From the NCBI RefSeq assembly GCF_001182745.1, contig NZ_LN868938.1, positions 1,550,001 through 1,614,000 on the forward strand: 64,000 bases of DNA. Direction: 5' to 3'. Position 1 is the first letter of the stretch. Each line of letters starts with the position of its first letter. Both the position numbers and the translations under genes were made by a program. Origin of the DNA: Nocardia farcinica. Its GTDB lineage: Bacteria; Actinomycetota; Actinomycetes; Mycobacteriales; Mycobacteriaceae. The notes under the pieces were generated by a model, which worked only from the letters and a program-made list of their open reading frames with translations, ran no database searches and was not told the origin of the DNA. Below are positions 3,716-37,871 of this stretch, one piece after another.

Positions 3716-3790
3716 GGTGAACGACCCAGCTCCGACCGGCCGCGGAGGGCACCCGGGCGTGGGCGGGAACGGGTTGATTAGGCTCGGTTC

Positions 3791-4858
3791 GTGCGGCAGA
3801 AGATCATCGTGGACGTCGATACCGGCATCGATGACTCGCTGGCGCTGCTGTATCTGCTGGCCTCCCCCGAGGCCGAGATCGTCGGCATCGCCGCGACGGC
3901 GGGCAATGTGAGTGCGGCGCAGGTGGCCGCCAACAACCTGGCCTGGCTGGACGTGTGCCGGGCGCCGGCGATCGAGGTCGCCCTCGGTGCCGCCGCACCG
4001 TTGGCGATCCCGCTGCGCACCACCGAGGACACCCACGGCCCGCAGGGGGTCGGCTACGCCGAACTGCCCACCTCGGCCCGCCCGCTCTCGGACCGCTCGG
4101 CCGCGCAGCTGTGGGTCGACCTGGCCCGCGCGCATCCCGGGCAGATCACCGGACTGTGCACGGGACCTCTGACCAACCTGGCGCTGGCCCTGCGACTCGA
4201 GCCCGCCCTGCCGCTGCTGTTGCGCAGGCTGGTGGTGATGGGCGGGGCGTTCAACCATCCCGGCAACACCACGCCGACCAACGAGTGGAACGTCCACGTC
4301 GATCCGGAGGCGGCCAAGGCGGTCTTCGACGCCTTCTCCGCCGCCCCGCCCGAGCGCAGGCCGCTGATCTGCGCCCTGGACATCACCGAGACCATCGAGA
4401 TGCACCCGCACCACCTCGCCGAGCTCGCCCGGCGGGCGGGCAGCACGCCGGTGGAACAGCCCGCCCCCACCGATCCGCCCGGCACGCGGTCGACGGCCGC
4501 CAACCCGGTGATCCGGCACGTCACCGACGCGGTGCGCTTCTACTTCGAATTCCACGACGCCTACGACCAGGGCTATCTCGCGCACATGCACGACCCGTTC
4601 GCCGCCGCCGTCGCGCTCGACCCCGCGCTGGCCCGGGTGCGGCCCGCCACCGTGGACGTCGAGCTCACCGGCACCATCACCCGGGCGACCACGGTCGCCG
4701 ACTGGGCGGGCATGTGGGGCAGGCCCTTCAATGCCGACATCGTGCTCGGCACCGACCCGGCGCTGTTCTTCGAGCGCATGATCGACCGCGTCGGCGCGTA
4801 CGCGCGGTCGCTGTACCCGCCCGTGGCGAATCTGCCCGCGACACAGGAGGTTCCGTGA
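3791..4858 (+). CDS. Inosine/uridine-preferring nucleoside hydrolase (IUNH family)
   Basis: Hydrolyses the N-glycosidic bond of a ribonucleoside to ribose and base, for purine or pyrimidine salvage in the cytoplasm. The N-terminus carries the calcium-binding aspartate cluster VDVDTGIDD at about residues 8-16, and further family signatures follow (GNVSAAQVAANN, CTGPLTNLALAL, VVMGGAFNHPGN). At 355 residues it is close to the normal length of 310-350. The GTG at 3791 is the only start placed just before the Asp cluster. Its stop overlaps the start of the amidohydrolase by 4 bases (GTGA), so the two are translationally coupled and probably act on one pathway. The last 20 residues are a short extension. 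Confidence 0.9.
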   Translation: MRQKIIVDVDTGIDDSLALLYLLASPEAEIVGIAATAGNVSAAQVAANNLAWLDVCRAPAIEVALGAAAPLAIPLRTTEDTHGPQGVGYAELPTSARPLSDRSAAQLWVDLARAHPGQITGLCTGPLTNLALALRLEPALPLLLRRLVVMGGAFNHPGNTTPTNEWNVHVDPEAAKAVFDAFSAAPPERRPLICALDITETIEMHPHHLAELARRAGSTPVEQPAPTDPPGTRSTAANPVIRHVTDAVRFYFEFHDAYDQGYLAHMHDPFAAAVALDPALARVRPATVDVELTGTITRATTVADWAGMWGRPFNADIVLGTDPALFFERMIDRVGAYARSLYPPVANLPATQEVP

Positions 4859-30424: not shown

Positions 30425-32146
30425 TCAGAACAGGAAATACCGTTGCGCCATCGGCAGTTCGGTGGCGGGCTGTTCGGCCCACACCTCGCCGTCGACCCGT
30501 ACGGTGAAGGTGTCCGGGTCGACCTCGATGCGCGGCATGGCGTCGTTGAGCGGCATGTCGGTTTTGGTGAGCCGGCGAACGTCCTTGACCGCGACCAGCT
30601 TCCGCCGCACCGCCAGCCGCTCGGCGAGTCCGTCGGCCAGGGCATGCTCGGAGACGAAATGCAGCGACGTGGCGGCCGCGACGGGTGCGGCGGCGCCGAA
30701 CATCGGGCGCGGCAGCACCGGCTGCGGCGTCGGGATGGAGGCGTTGGCGTCACCCATGGCGGCCCAGGCGATCGCGCCGCCCTTGAGCACCGCGTGCGGG
30801 CGCACCCCGAAGAAGGCGGGGTCCCACAGCACCAGGTCGGCCAGTTTGCCCACCTCCACCGACCCGATCTCGGCGTCCAGGCCGTGCGCCACGGCCGGGC
30901 AGATCGTGTACTTGGCGATGTAGCGGCGCACCCGCGCGTTGTCGGCGGCGCCGTCGCCGGGCAGCGCGCCGCGGCGGCGTTTCATCACGTGCGCGGTCTG
31001 CCAGGTGCGCATCACCACCTCGCCGATGCGGCCCATCGCCTGCGAGTCGCTGCCGATCATCGAGATGGCGCCCAGGTCGTGCAGCAGATCCTCGGCGGCG
31101 ATGGTCGAGGGCCGGATGCGGCTCTCGGCGAAGGCCAGGTCCTCGGGGATGGACGGGCTCAGGTGATGGCACACCATGAGCATGTCCAGGTGCTCGTCGA
31201 GCGTGTTGACGGTATGCGGGCGGGTCGGATTGGTGGAACTCGGCAACACGTTGGGATGCGCGGCCACCGTGATGATGTCGGGCGCGTGGCCACCGCCCGC
31301 GCCCTCGGTGTGGTAGGCGTGGATGCCGCGGCCGGCGATGGCGGCGAGGGTGTCCTCGACGAAACCGGCCTCGTTCAAGGTGTCCGAGTGCAGCGCGACC
31401 TGCACTCCGGAGGCGTCGGCGACCCGTAGGCAGGCGTCGATCGCCGCGGGCGTGGAGCCCCAGTCCTCGTGCAGCTTGAAACCCGAAGCGCCCGCGCGCA
31501 ACTGCTCCCACATGGCGGCTTCGCTGACGGTGTTGCCCTTGCCGAGCAGCGCGATGTTCAGCGGCCAGTGGTCGGTGGCCTCGAGCATCCGGGCCAGGTG
31601 CCAGGCGCCGGGCGTCACGGTGGTGGCCTTGCTGCCCTCGGCCGGGCCGGTGCCGCCGCCGATGAGGGTGGTGATGCCGCCGCCGAGCGCCTCGTCCATC
31701 AGCTGCGGGCAGATGAAGTGCACGTGACAGTCGATGGCGCCCGCGGTGAGGATGCGCCCGTTGCCGGCGATGATCTCCGTCGAGGGGCCGACCACGAGGT
31801 CGGGGTGCACACCGGACATGGTGTCGGGATTGCCGGCTTTGCCGATGCCGCAGATGCGACCGTCGCGGATGCCGATGTCGGCCTTGACGATTCCCCAGTG
31901 GTCGACGATGACGGCACCGGTGATGACGGTGTCGGGCGCGCCGTCGGCGCGGGTGGCACGCGACTGCCCCATGGACTCGCGCAGCACCTTGCCGCCGCCG
32001 AAGACGGCTTCGTCGCCGGCCAGCCCGGGTCCACCGCTGCGATCCTCGGTGATCTCGATCAGCAGGTCGGTGTCGGCCAACCGGATCCGGTCGCCGGTGG
32101 TGGGGCCGAACAGTTCGGCGTAGCGGGCCCGGCTCAGTTCGGTCAC
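30425..32146 (-). CDS. ureC: Urease alpha subunit UreC
   Basis: Catalytic subunit of urease, which hydrolyses urea to ammonia and carbamate at a di-nickel centre. Metal ligands and active-site residues are all visible: H141 and H143 (CHVHFICP), the carbamylated lysine K224 in [10 protein letters not shown]253 and H279, the flap C326-H327-H328 (MVCHHLS) and D366 in GSDSQAM. The 573-residue length is normal. Its start overlaps ureB by 4 bases. In mycobacteria ureF follows at once; here a terminator follows and ureF is about 10.8 kb away on the same strand. Confidence 0.98.
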
Positions 32147-32476: not shown

Positions 32477-32779
<303 letters not shown>

Positions 32780-32866
32780 CCGGGCTCCTCACCGGGTCGG
32801 CGGACGGGTGACGGTCATTCTGGCACGGTCACCGCGGTGCCGCCGGTCGAGCGCACCCCGGTGTGG

Positions 32867-33313
32867 TCAGTCCCGCTTGGGCAGGTTCTGCAGGCGGACC
32901 TGGCCGCGCGCGACCACGCGCTCCTGCTCGTCGGTGATGACCACCTGCCACAACTGCTGGAGTCGGCCGCGGTGCAGCGGGGTGGCCTCGCCGCGCAGCA
33001 GGCCCTCGCGGACCGCGCGCAGGAAGTCGGTGTTGTTGTTGACGCCGACGACGGTGCCCTGGTCGCCGTACCAGACGCTGCCCGCCACGCTGGCCAGTGT
33101 CTCGATCACGGTGCAGTAGACGCCGCCGTTGACGATGCCCGCCGGCTGGAACAGGTGCGGCTGTACATCGAATTCGCCGCGCACCCGGTCCGGGCCGAGT
33201 TCGGTGTAGCGCAGGCCGAGCAGGTCGGCGAAGGTGCCCTGCTCGAATTCGTTCAGCATCTCCGGTGTCACGCCGGCCAGCGACTCGACCGGGGGCGTCT
33301 GCTGTTGCGTCAT
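32867..33313 (-). CDS. PaaI-type hotdog thioesterase (Rv1847-like)
   Basis: Predicted acyl-CoA thioesterase of the single-hotdog PaaI family, 148 residues. The active-site helix segment FQPAGIVNGGVYCTVIETLAS is followed by VGVNNNTDFLRAVREG, as in the family. ATG 33313 is preferred over a GTG three codons upstream because AGGTGG is well spaced before it. It sits just before ureA and 66 bases after the terminator of the candidate iron-regulated RNA. Its place between that RNA and urease matches Rv1847 in M. tuberculosis, so it is a likely orthologue. Confidence 0.85.
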   Translation of the reverse strand: MTQQQTPPVESLAGVTPEMLNEFEQGTFADLLGLRYTELGPDRVRGEFDVQPHLFQPAGIVNGGVYCTVIETLASVAGSVWYGDQGTVVGVNNNTDFLRAVREGLLRGEATPLHRGRLQQLWQVVITDEQERVVARGQVRLQNLPKRD

Positions 33314-33378
33314 GCGTTCCACCTTTACACCTCACCGGACCGGGCGGTACGGGCGGGCCGCCGGAAGGGCGGCGAACG

Positions 33379-33415
33379 AAAAAGCGGCGGGCCCCATGGT
33401 GGTGGGGCCCGCCGC
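33379..33415 (-). terminator. Intrinsic terminator of the iron-regulated RNA
   Basis: A perfect 12-bp stem (33384-33395 with 33404-33415; arms GCGGCGGGCCCC and GGGGCCCGCCGC) with an 8-base loop, followed on the minus strand by five U (33379-33383). It is the most classical Rho-independent terminator in the window. It could also end transcripts coming from the FhuF-like gene. Confidence 0.85.
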
Positions 33416-33470
33416 GGCAACGGATCGGGGGTCACTGCAGCCCTCAGGACTCTCGCTCGATCCTCACGCC
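33379..33470 (-). ncRNA. Candidate iron-regulated small RNA, MrsI-like
   Basis: About 90 nt between a promoter/iron box and a strong terminator. The predicted RNA has a 6-bp closing stem (33458-33463 with 33422-33427, GGAUCG/CGAUCC) enclosing a 5-bp hairpin (33447-33451 with 33439-33443). The loop side has a run of five C (33427-33431, partly in the stem) that could pair with G-rich ribosome binding sites, and the terminator hairpin follows. It lies upstream of the Rv1847-like gene and on its strand. That is where M. tuberculosis carries MrsI (ncRv11846), an IdeR-controlled RNA that spares iron. Homology rests on position, control and architecture; sequence was not compared. Confidence 0.65.
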
Positions 33471-33477
33471 GGGATTG

Positions 33478-33506
33478 ACTATAGGACAGGCTTACCTAAC
33501 TTGCAA
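33478..33506 (-). promoter_or_regulatory. Sigma70-like promoter overlapped by an iron box (DtxR/IdeR)
   Basis: On the minus strand a -35 TTGCAA (33501-33506), a 17-base spacer and a -10 TATAGT (33478-33483) make a good promoter. The spacer and -10 coincide with the iron box at 33481-33499, which matches the 19-base consensus at 15 positions by my count. Iron-loaded repressor bound here would block transcription of the RNA. Confidence 0.75.
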
Positions 33507-33549
33507 GAGCGTCGAGGTCTCCCGTGTCGAATTCCGGCGTCCGCCCCGC

Positions 33550-34260
33550 TCAGCCCAGCAGGCAAGCACTGCGGCGGACCGGCAACCCCCGCTCCTCGAG
33601 TGCCACCAGCAGTCCCTGCCCGCGGCGCGCCCCCAGCACCGAATCGGTGCGCGCCAGATCCGGCACGTAGGTGGCGGCGCCGACCACCGATTCGCCCACC
33701 AGCGACCAGAATCGGCGCGCGCTCAGCCCCGAACAGCGCGACAGCCCGTGGTGCACCAGCGCCAGCGACGCCTCGCAGCGGTGCGCCAGCCACACCGACA
33801 TCGCCCGCTCGCACGGGAATCCGACGACGCCGTGCGCGCCGACCAGCGGGTCGTCGTCGAGGACGCGGATCGTGGTGTCCTCCAGGCCCGCCCAGTCGAT
33901 GCCGCCGTCGTTGTCGTTGTGCACCCACAGGTTCTCCGGGCCGGGATCCCAGGCGCGGCCCTCCATCACCAGCAGCGCGGCCACCCGGCCGACGACGGCG
34001 TGGATGAGCGCGGTCGCGACCACCTCGGCGGCGACCTCGGCGTTGGTCATCTCGGCGGCGTGGCGCCGGTACATCAGCTCGATGCGGCCCTCGCGCAACC
34101 CCTCCGAGAGTTTCCACCAGCGGCGGCGGCCGTGTTCGGCGACGGCGGCCACGGCGTAGACGCGCGGATGGTCCGGCTGCAGCGCGCGCAGCCGGGAACA
34201 GGCACGCCCGAACACCGGGTCGGCGTAACGATCGGGGATGCTGGTCACGGGCTCGGTCAT
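33550..34260 (-). CDS. FhuF-like siderophore-iron reductase family protein
   Basis: A 236-residue cytoplasmic protein placed with siderophore uptake genes and under an iron box. Its layout fits the FhuF-like/IucA-C-terminal family that releases iron from siderophores (LRALQPDHPRVYAVAAVAEHG, ENLWVHNDNDGG, SVWLAHRCEASLALV). True FhuF proteins bind a 2Fe-2S cluster through a Cys-Cys pair plus C-x2-C at the end; here the C-terminus has only one Cys (RRSACLLG), so cluster binding is doubtful. ATG 34260 has a perfect AGGAGG site. It is divergent from the FecCD permease. Confidence 0.6.
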   Translation of the reverse strand: MTEPVTSIPDRYADPVFGRACSRLRALQPDHPRVYAVAAVAEHGRRRWWKLSEGLREGRIELMYRRHAAEMTNAEVAAEVVATALIHAVVGRVAALLVMEGRAWDPGPENLWVHNDNDGGIDWAGLEDTTIRVLDDDPLVGAHGVVGFPCERAMSVWLAHRCEASLALVHHGLSRCSGLSARRFWSLVGESVVGAATYVPDLARTDSVLGARRGQGLLVALEERGLPVRRSACLLG

Positions 34261-34304
34261 CGAACCTCCTCGGGTCGGCTCCGCGATGGAGTCGGAGCGG
34301 GAAG

Positions 34305-34323
34305 ATAGGTTAGGCTTACCAGA
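34305..34323. promoter_or_regulatory. Iron box between FhuF-like and FecCD genes
   Basis: ATAGGTTAGGCTTACCAGA matches the DtxR/IdeR consensus (TTAGGTTAGGCTAACCTAA) at 15 of 19 positions. It lies centrally between divergent starts (34260 and 34368), so one site can repress both directions when iron is plentiful. Confidence 0.8.
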
Positions 34324-34367
34324 CCTGAACCCCTGGCACCAGATCGAGGCAGGAGCACGTCGTCGCC

Positions 34368-35414
34368 GTGACAACCCTTGGCACCGTGCGGCGACGACGC
34401 CGCGTCGGCCTGCTGGCCCTGCTCGCGCTGCTGGCGCTGGCCGCCCTGGCCAGCGTCGCCCTCGGCGCGCGCGCCATCGCACCCGGCACCGTCTACGAGG
34501 CGGTCGCGCACGCGCTGGGGTGCGCGGACGGGCCGTTCACCTGCCCGGCCGCCTCCACCACCGAGGAAATCGTGCGCGGCCTGCGGATTCCGCGCACGGC
34601 ACTGGCACTCGTCGCGGGCCTGGCCCTCGGCGCCACCGGTGCTCTCATCCAGGGCTACACCCGCAACCCGCTCGCCGACGCGGGCCTGCTCGGCCTCAAT
34701 TCCGGCGCCGCGTTCCTCGCGGCACTGAGCGTGTACCTGTTCGCCTTCACCGACCCCGAGCAGTACATCTGGTTCGCGATGGCCGGCGCGCTGCTGGCCG
34801 GGCTCGCGGTGTTCGGCGCGTCCTCGCTCGGCGGCGGCAAGGCCAGTCCGCTGAGCCTGGTGCTGGCCGGCGCCGCGATGACGGCCTTCCTCCAGGCGAT
34901 GACGCAGGCGGTGGTGCTGTTCGACGCGACCGCGCTGGACACCTACCGGTTCTGGGTGGTCGGCACGGTCGCCGGGCGCGATGCCGCGGTGTTCTGGCAG
35001 GTACTGCCGTTCATCGCGGTGGGCGCGGTCCTGGCGACGGCGGCGGCGCCCGGCCTGAACCTGCTCGGTCTCGGCGACGATGTCGCACGCGGACTCGGCA
35101 TGAACATCGCCCGCAGCCGGGCGCTCGGCTTCACCGCGGTCGTGCTGCTGTGCGGCGCGGCGACCTCGGCGGTCGGGCCGATCGCGTTCCTGGGGCTGGT
35201 CGTCCCGCACATCGCGCGAGCCTTCACCGGGCCGGACCACCGCTGGCTCATCCCCTATTCCGCGTTGCTCGGCGCGGTGTTGCTGCTGTGCGCCGATACG
35301 CTGGGCCGGATCGTCGCACGGCCGGGCGAGTTGCAGGTGGGCGTGATGCTGGCGGTCGTCGGCGCGCCCTACTTCATCGCCCTGGTGCGCCGCAGGAAGT
35401 TGGTGAGCCTGTGA
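34368..35414 (+). CDS. FecCD-family siderophore ABC permease (first)
   Basis: Integral membrane subunit of an iron-siderophore or related (B12, haem) importer, 348 residues with about nine to ten helices. Family signatures are LRIPRTALALVAGLALGATGALIQG, NPLADAGLLGLNSGA, a cytoplasmic-loop segment GLGMNIARSRALG and FLGLVVPHIAR, which contacts the ATPase. Start GTG 34368 with GCAGGAG upstream. Its stop overlaps the second permease start by 4 bases (GTGA). Controlled by the iron box at 34305. Confidence 0.93.
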   Translation: MTTLGTVRRRRRVGLLALLALLALAALASVALGARAIAPGTVYEAVAHALGCADGPFTCPAASTTEEIVRGLRIPRTALALVAGLALGATGALIQGYTRNPLADAGLLGLNSGAAFLAALSVYLFAFTDPEQYIWFAMAGALLAGLAVFGASSLGGGKASPLSLVLAGAAMTAFLQAMTQAVVLFDATALDTYRFWVVGTVAGRDAAVFWQVLPFIAVGAVLATAAAPGLNLLGLGDDVARGLGMNIARSRALGFTAVVLLCGAATSAVGPIAFLGLVVPHIARAFTGPDHRWLIPYSALLGAVLLLCADTLGRIVARPGELQVGVMLAVVGAPYFIALVRRRKLVSL

Positions 35415-37478: not shown

Positions 37479-37871
37479 ATGGCAGGTCTTGGTGAACTCG
37501 AGAAGGCGGTCATGGACCAGTTGTGGTCCAGTGACGAACCGCAAACCGTCCGGCAGGTGCACGAGGCGCTGGCCGCACGCCGGGAACTCGCGTACACCAC
37601 GGTGATGACCGTGCTGCAACGGCTGGCGAAGAAGAACCTCGTGGTCCAGCGCCGCGACGATCGCGCCCACCGGTACGCCCCCGTGCACACCCGCGACGAA
37701 CTCGTCGCCAGCCTGATGGTGGACGCGCTGCAACAGGCCGAGGAGGCGGGCAGCCGCGCCGCCGCGCTCGTGCACTTCGTGGAACAGGTCGGCCCCGACG
37801 AGGCCGACGCGCTGCGTGAGGCGCTGGCCAAGCTCGAGGCCGCCGAGGGCACCTCACCGCCGGGCGAGTAG
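37479..37871 (+). CDS. BlaI/MecI/CopY-family repressor
   Basis: A winged-helix repressor of 130 residues (Rv1846c-like). The DNA-binding part is LGELEKAVMDQLWSSDEPQTVRQVHEAL then AYTTVMTVLQRLAKKNLV; the C-terminal helices dimerise and, in the family, are cut after a signal by the partner M56 protease. ATG 37479. It lies 96 bases before the M56 gene, its expected sensor partner, and after a palindrome that may be its own operator. Confidence 0.93.
   Translation: MAGLGELEKAVMDQLWSSDEPQTVRQVHEALAARRELAYTTVMTVLQRLAKKNLVVQRRDDRAHRYAPVHTRDELVASLMVDALQQAEEAGSRAAALVHFVEQVGPDEADALREALAKLEAAEGTSPPGE

Follow-up and report, generated by a model that had tools for sequence, protein, structure and literature searches.

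The small RNA (sRNA) MrsI (ncRv11846) of Mycobacterium tuberculosis and M. smegmatis is described in reviews (PMC8628891, PMC11188477, PMC12101431) as a molecule of approximately 100 nucleotides (nt) encoded between blaI and Rv1847. According to these reviews, its gene carries an IdeR site and a predicted intrinsic terminator, the RNA has a 6-nt seed and a 7-nt apical loop, and it represses bfrA, hypF, and fprA. The general logic of an iron-repressed RNA acting on the messenger RNAs (mRNAs) of iron proteins is shared, as described in PMC9410917, with RyhB, PrrF, FsrA, and IsrR. Here, we analyzed a stretch of 64,000 nt from Nocardia farcinica (NCBI RefSeq assembly GCF_001182745.1, contig NZ_LN868938.1, positions 1,550,001 to 1,614,000 of the forward strand), hereafter called the window, whose first letter is position 1 of all window coordinates. 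An MrsI-type sRNA unit of approximately 92 nt was delimited on its minus strand (33379..33470) by fold, alignments, and covariation, with the 5' end placed from the -10 hexamer; it lies upstream of a hotdog thioesterase gene (32867..33322, minus strand; PF03061, 55.8 bits; TIGR00369, 79.1 bits) that occupies an Rv1847-like place. The Nocardia RNA resembles MrsI in its promoter iron box, its length of approximately 100 nt, its terminator, and, in the predicted fold, its 7-nt apical loop. Judging from these sequence features and from the comparisons below, the unit is very probably a free-standing small-RNA gene and the Nocardia orthologue of MrsI.

Promoter, iron box and fold of the unit

The interval 32500-34500 contains one promoter-like match only, against a mean of 0.1 in shuffled sequences, and this match consists, on the minus strand, of the -35 hexamer TTGCAA (33501..33506), a spacer of 17 nt, and the -10 hexamer TATAGT (33478..33483). 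An IdeR/DtxR-type iron box, TTAGGTAAGCCTGTCCTAT (33481..33499, minus strand), extends over the spacer and the -10 hexamer; compared with the 19-base consensus that we assumed for scoring, it agrees at 15 of 19 positions when read on the plus strand and at 14 of 19 on the minus strand. Two places in the window, at 33481 and 34305, reach at least 14 of the 19 bases, and 20 Markov shuffles of the window, scored on both strands, gave none at this level and three at 13. The 18-base form of the box has a single occurrence in the 6.46-Mb genome. The unit ends, on the same strand, with an intrinsic terminator that has a 13-bp stem (33384..33415; 12 GC pairs and one AT pair) and a U run encoded by five T (33379..33383), and two terminator-like sites were found in 32500-34500 against 0.4 in shuffles. 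For the 92-nt RNA (33470-33379), the predicted fold has an energy of -54.1 kcal/mol and a z-score of -4.4, a value equalled by none of 200 shuffles. The initial annotation of this DNA had described a minus-strand -35/-10 pair with a 17-base spacer, an iron box lying across the spacer and the -10 hexamer, and approximately 90 nt of nested hairpins, all of which our analysis bears out; the five U that it assigned to the terminator also stand, whereas the stem measures 13 bp instead of the 12 that it reported.

Between the 5' end and the terminator, the RNA folds, according to the prediction, into two nested stems (all coordinates on the minus strand). Stem P1 is formed by the arms GGATCG (33458..33463) and CGATCC (33422..33427), and 96.2% of its cells are paired in an alignment of 31 sequences. 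Stem P2 (5' arm, 33445..33452; 3' arm, 33429..33437) ends in the pairs that close the 7-nt apical loop AGGGCUG (33438..33444), which is presumed to be the seed; the second pair below the loop appears as UA, CG, AU, or GC. This alignment, A3, comprises 31 sequences from 20 genera that were chosen by hand for genus spread, delimited by model matches, and aligned with MAFFT. When the structure derived from the window is imposed on it, 92.3% of cells are paired and 19 of the 27 pairs show two-sided changes, 13 of these 19 in the terminator stem and the other six among the 14 pairs of P1 and P2. None of 500 shuffles, which ignore kinship, reached any of five covariation measures, and structures slid along the alignment reached at most 46% pairing, a control against which the structure is favoured by having come from one member sequence. 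Of the loop sequence, GGGCTG is present in 31 of 31 sequences and AGGGCTG in 30 of 31; the core GAGGGCTGC is likewise present in 30 of 31. Single folds from six other genomes gave the same 7-nt loop, with z-scores from -3.0 to -5.7. The loop AGGGCUG is constrained, and it is borne on a stem that is maintained by compensatory changes.

Conservation in Nocardia and spread through the family

The search based on the thioesterase returned 59 loci, 45 of them labelled Nocardia. The iron box and the core are kept in 44 of the 45 Nocardia loci, both being missing from L041, a contig of a metagenome-assembled genome (MAG), and the box follows the pattern TTAGG[TC]AAG[CG]CTGNCCTA in 44 of 45. The core is followed by a GC stem, 12-15 bp long and with no more than one mismatch, in 43 of the 44 Nocardia loci that have box and core; the exception, L033 (a N. 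wallacei record, near 3733-3900), has a long poly-G run within the sRNA, which is probably an assembly artefact. All 45 Nocardia units, the window included, have a TTG-type -35 element, located 18 nt before the -10 hexamer in 43 units and 17 nt before it in two, and a -10 hexamer that starts with TA and ends with T, the TA being part of the box pattern.

A covariance model, R1, was built from an alignment (A1) of 38 of the 45 Nocardia units, leaving out L033 for its poly-G run and L007, L013, L014, L035, L050, and L056, which are closely related to other units. R1 matches 157 of 201 genomes of the Genome Taxonomy Database (GTDB) family and 338 of 396 genomes of Mycobacterium at an expect value (E) of at most 1, in searches that scored 10-20 candidates per genome after strict filters and whose E-values are rough by construction; given these filters and the few candidates per genome, misses are likely. 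At E<=0.0011, a match is present, by our count, in 21 of the 31 genera (given here by code), and g3 and g4 have weak matches only (E of 0.019 or worse). Genus g29 was taken as Mycobacterium on the basis of the BlaI protein of L181, which aligns over 130 residues with PDB 2g9w (243.7 bits), a chain that we take to be M. tuberculosis Rv1846c; the chains closest to the RpoB of another g29 member are presumably mycobacterial as well. The initial annotation had expected the hairpins and the box to be conserved in related genomes and the RNA to extend beyond mycobacteria; the former agrees with the 44 Nocardia loci and with the covariation over 20 genera, and the latter with these loci and the R1 matches in the family.

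In a set of sources picked by hand, R1 exceeds 40 bits in 52 of 67, the other 15 being L041, L044-L049, L051-L054, L057-L059, and L180. Williamsia sp. CHRR-6 (L043) scores 66.5 bits and has a looser box (14/19) that fails the strict Nocardia pattern. In two of the genera without R1 matches, g8 and g25 (L371 and L368), a diverged unit has an iron box, a TATAGT -10 hexamer, the AGGGCUG loop, and different complementary arms; no unit was recognised near the thioesterase gene in R1-negative g4, g5, g12, g14, g15, g18, and g31, with one genome inspected for each. At the level of the order, R1 finds matches at E<=0.01 in 29 of 200 genomes. Three order matches outside the family (33.9-35.6 bits) do not contain AGGGCTGC, have boxes of at most 11/19, and are taken as chance.

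Two further observations concern these searches. Shortly past the thioesterase gene of the Williamsia locus (L043, 4439-4485), there is a guanidine-II riboswitch-like match of 28 bits, for which the gathering score is 32. In L045, L046, and L047, MAGs labelled Actinomycetota, Actinomycetes, and Mycobacterium, blaI adjoins the thioesterase gene and R1 finds no sRNA, so the blaI-thioesterase pair may be older than the sRNA.

Relation to MrsI and rival explanations

Downstream of the sRNA in the window come the thioesterase gene and then ureABC, with ureA (urease gamma) at 32477..32779 on the minus strand (PF00547, 162.9 bits). Upstream are a weakly FhuF-like gene (33550..34260, minus strand; PF06276, 18.6 bits, which does not reach the cut-off of 25.2), two fecCD genes, an ABC ATPase gene, and a blaI-type repressor gene (37479..37871, plus strand; PF03965, 100.7 bits). 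The sRNA is thus on the strand of the thioesterase gene and on the same side of this Rv1847-like gene, with blaI further out, in accordance with the initial annotation. Unlike the arrangement at MrsI, iron-uptake genes and the FhuF-like gene stand between the sRNA and blaI. The second iron box (34305..34323, plus strand; 15/19), in the gap that separates the FhuF-like gene from the divergent fecCD genes, suggests that an iron-regulated uptake locus adjoins the sRNA.

The mycobacterial relatives of the Nocardia RNA share the place of MrsI between blaI and an Rv1847-type gene. Among the Mycobacterium loci, the 12 that were inspected for their top-scoring blaI, whose product is 92-95% identical to 2g9w, all have the order blaI, an RNA that matches R1 at 43-61.5 bits, and the thioesterase gene, with the RNA read towards the last; only some of these loci also include urease genes further along. 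The RNA is also located between blaI and the thioesterase gene in one locus each of g7, g9, g11, g13, g17, g19, and g30. A blaI at 100% identity is absent among the matches listed for the 396 Mycobacterium genomes, and for this reason M. tuberculosis is probably not in the sample. Place, box, loop size, covariation, and the 12 Mycobacterium loci together support the identification of the unit as the Nocardia counterpart of MrsI, which the initial annotation had put forward as probable. In Rfam 15, no family was found over the sRNA at the thresholds used. The better of two weak Rfam matches, 6C (RF01066; E 0.59), reaches 23.7 bits, whereas the gathering score is 47, and the RNA is not counted as a member.

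The variation among the Nocardia loci bears on how the unit is transcribed. Its distance to the start of the thioesterase gene ranges from 57 to 2627 nt, it is placed on the opposite strand to that gene in two of 44 loci (L040 and L042), and in some loci the FhuF-like neighbour is far off or unmatched; because of this variable distance, the two inversions, and the inconstant neighbour, we regard the sRNA unit as an autonomous, free-standing gene. An iron-regulated 5' leader with an attenuator, in which the promoter would serve the thioesterase gene and the hairpin would control read-through, fits the window and 27 of the 44 Nocardia loci, where the unit stands at most 530 nt upstream of that gene on the same strand; this reading is very unlikely in view of the 15 loci in which the unit is more than 1.2 kb away and the two in which it is inverted, all of which keep box and core. 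A slightly lower probability still is given to an RNA derived from a 3' untranslated region, which would be processed mainly from an mRNA of the FhuF-like gene starting at the second box (34305) and would have the hairpin as the terminator of that mRNA. The FhuF-like gene precedes the sRNA on the minus strand, it has an iron box of its own in the window, and its 3' end abuts or overlaps the box of the sRNA in many Nocardia loci, but the sRNA retains a separate box in loci that have no FhuF-like match or have one only at a distance (L021, on a short contig, and L024, L025, L027, L028, L030, L039, L040, L042, and L056), and likewise in seven loci where blaI directly adjoins the RNA.

The least probable of these alternatives is that the unit encodes an iron-repressed sRNA which is like MrsI by analogy and not by descent. 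The comparison with M. tuberculosis MrsI, made through mycobacterial relatives, leaves some room for this explanation, whereas place, box, size, and loop are the same in the Mycobacterium loci with the best blaI.

Proposed mechanism, candidate targets and meaning

As an orthologue of MrsI, the Nocardia unit would work as follows. When iron is present, IdeR/DtxR would occupy the box over the promoter and block transcription. When iron falls, a transcript of approximately 92 nt would be made, ending at the GC-rich terminator, and would present the 7-nt loop AGGGCUG on the stem kept by compensatory changes. The loop bases GGGCUG could then pair with CAGCCC where it stands in the leader of an mRNA that encodes a dispensable iron protein, leading to repression of that mRNA. 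Sequence comparison supports such pairing on bfrA leaders for six genera of the family other than Nocardia; in Nocardia itself, it is proposed by analogy only.

The comparison involves 38 bfrA genes, all over the family cut-off, from 37 of 81 genomes, and the 70 nt before each gene. Of the 30 bfrA genes in R1-positive genomes, 17 are preceded by CAGCCC, as against none of the eight in R1-negative genomes. In the R1-positive set, it ranks first of the 4096 hexamers (for comparison, the overlapping CCAGCC, 12; the Shine-Dalgarno-type CGGAGG, 10; its own reverse complement GGGCTG, 0), and mononucleotide shuffles gave a mean of 1.1 and a maximum of 5 in 500 runs. If g25 is moved to the RNA-positive side, the frequencies become 17/31 and 0/7 (Fisher p 0.009, with relatives counted as independent), and, by our count of genera, 6/14 with the RNA and 0/4 without it. 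Since relatives are counted as independent and the genus level gives just 6/14 against 0/4, more weight is given to the first place of CAGCCC among all hexamers. One Mycobacterium genome (G052) has, ahead of bfrA, the 11-base sequence CAGCCCTCAGG, which is exactly complementary to the loop and 5' arm of that genome's own RNA. The likeness to MrsI extends to the complement of the loop, which six genera of the family have ahead of bfrA.

Several observations weigh against the orthology or against the extension of this mechanism to Nocardia. The comparison with MrsI was made by place, by description, and through mycobacterial relatives, and the transcript of the Nocardia unit is predicted from sequence. 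Several Nocardia units have a poor T run at the terminator, with 1-6 T in the 8 nt past the stem in loci for which a stem was identified. CAGCCC is missing from 13 of the 30 bfrA leaders of R1-positive genomes, in counts uncorrected for kinship. No bfrA over the cut-off was found in the four Nocardia genomes searched, and the Nocardia regulon must for that reason differ from that of MrsI. The three Nocardia ferritin leaders examined do not contain CAGCCC, and ferritin was rejected as a Nocardia target on this ground. In the genome of the window, CAGCCCTCAGG is located solely at the RNA gene itself, CAGCCCTC occurs 205 times and its reversed control 158 times, which gives nothing clear, and the pattern combined with a Shine-Dalgarno site likewise has 19 occurrences against 26. 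Among 95 distinct CAGCCCTC sites examined of the 205, including 27 near a possible start that were judged by eye from the first residues, no clear iron protein with a site in its leader was recognised.

Two genes from the CAGCCCTC screen can be described further: the P450-like frame L291 has its site 18 nt inside the frame, and L322, which was put to Pfam, is a flavin oxidoreductase. Ahead of one Nocardia ferritin gene (L220; G000:C2:629000-630700), repeated iron-box-like stretches can be seen by eye, and they are reminiscent of IdeR-activated ferritin promoters.

It is quite possible, and is proposed here tentatively, that MrsI is an ancestral iron-sparing RNA of the family and older than its relation with bfrA, so that Nocardia keeps the loop and the promoter almost unchanged without bfrA. 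The loop would then serve another core regulon or would also bind a dedicated protein partner, either of which would account for nine kept bases (GAGGGCUGC, in 30 of 31 sequences) rather than six. A regulator described in mycobacteria can now be traced through much of the family with a searchable model, a defined fold, and a loop that hardly varies. Given this spread, targets can be found comparatively, of which the bfrA leaders are an example, and the question arises of the role of MrsI where bfrA is missing. No report of a wider spread of MrsI was found in the literature covered, which left subscription journals and preprints outside. In the available parts of PMC8600241 and PMC8583896, MrsI is named in the reference lists only. 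The accessible portion of a Rhodococcus phage transcriptome study (PMC10986025) reports lowered expression of bacterioferritin and names two other host RNAs, not this one.

A minor observation concerns the urease genes. RF02514 (5' ureB sRNA) matches the window with 53.4 bits at 31690-31979 on the plus strand, antisense to ureC, and RF02514 matches lie over the urease genes also in L184, L126, and L043; the match probably tracks conserved coding sequence.
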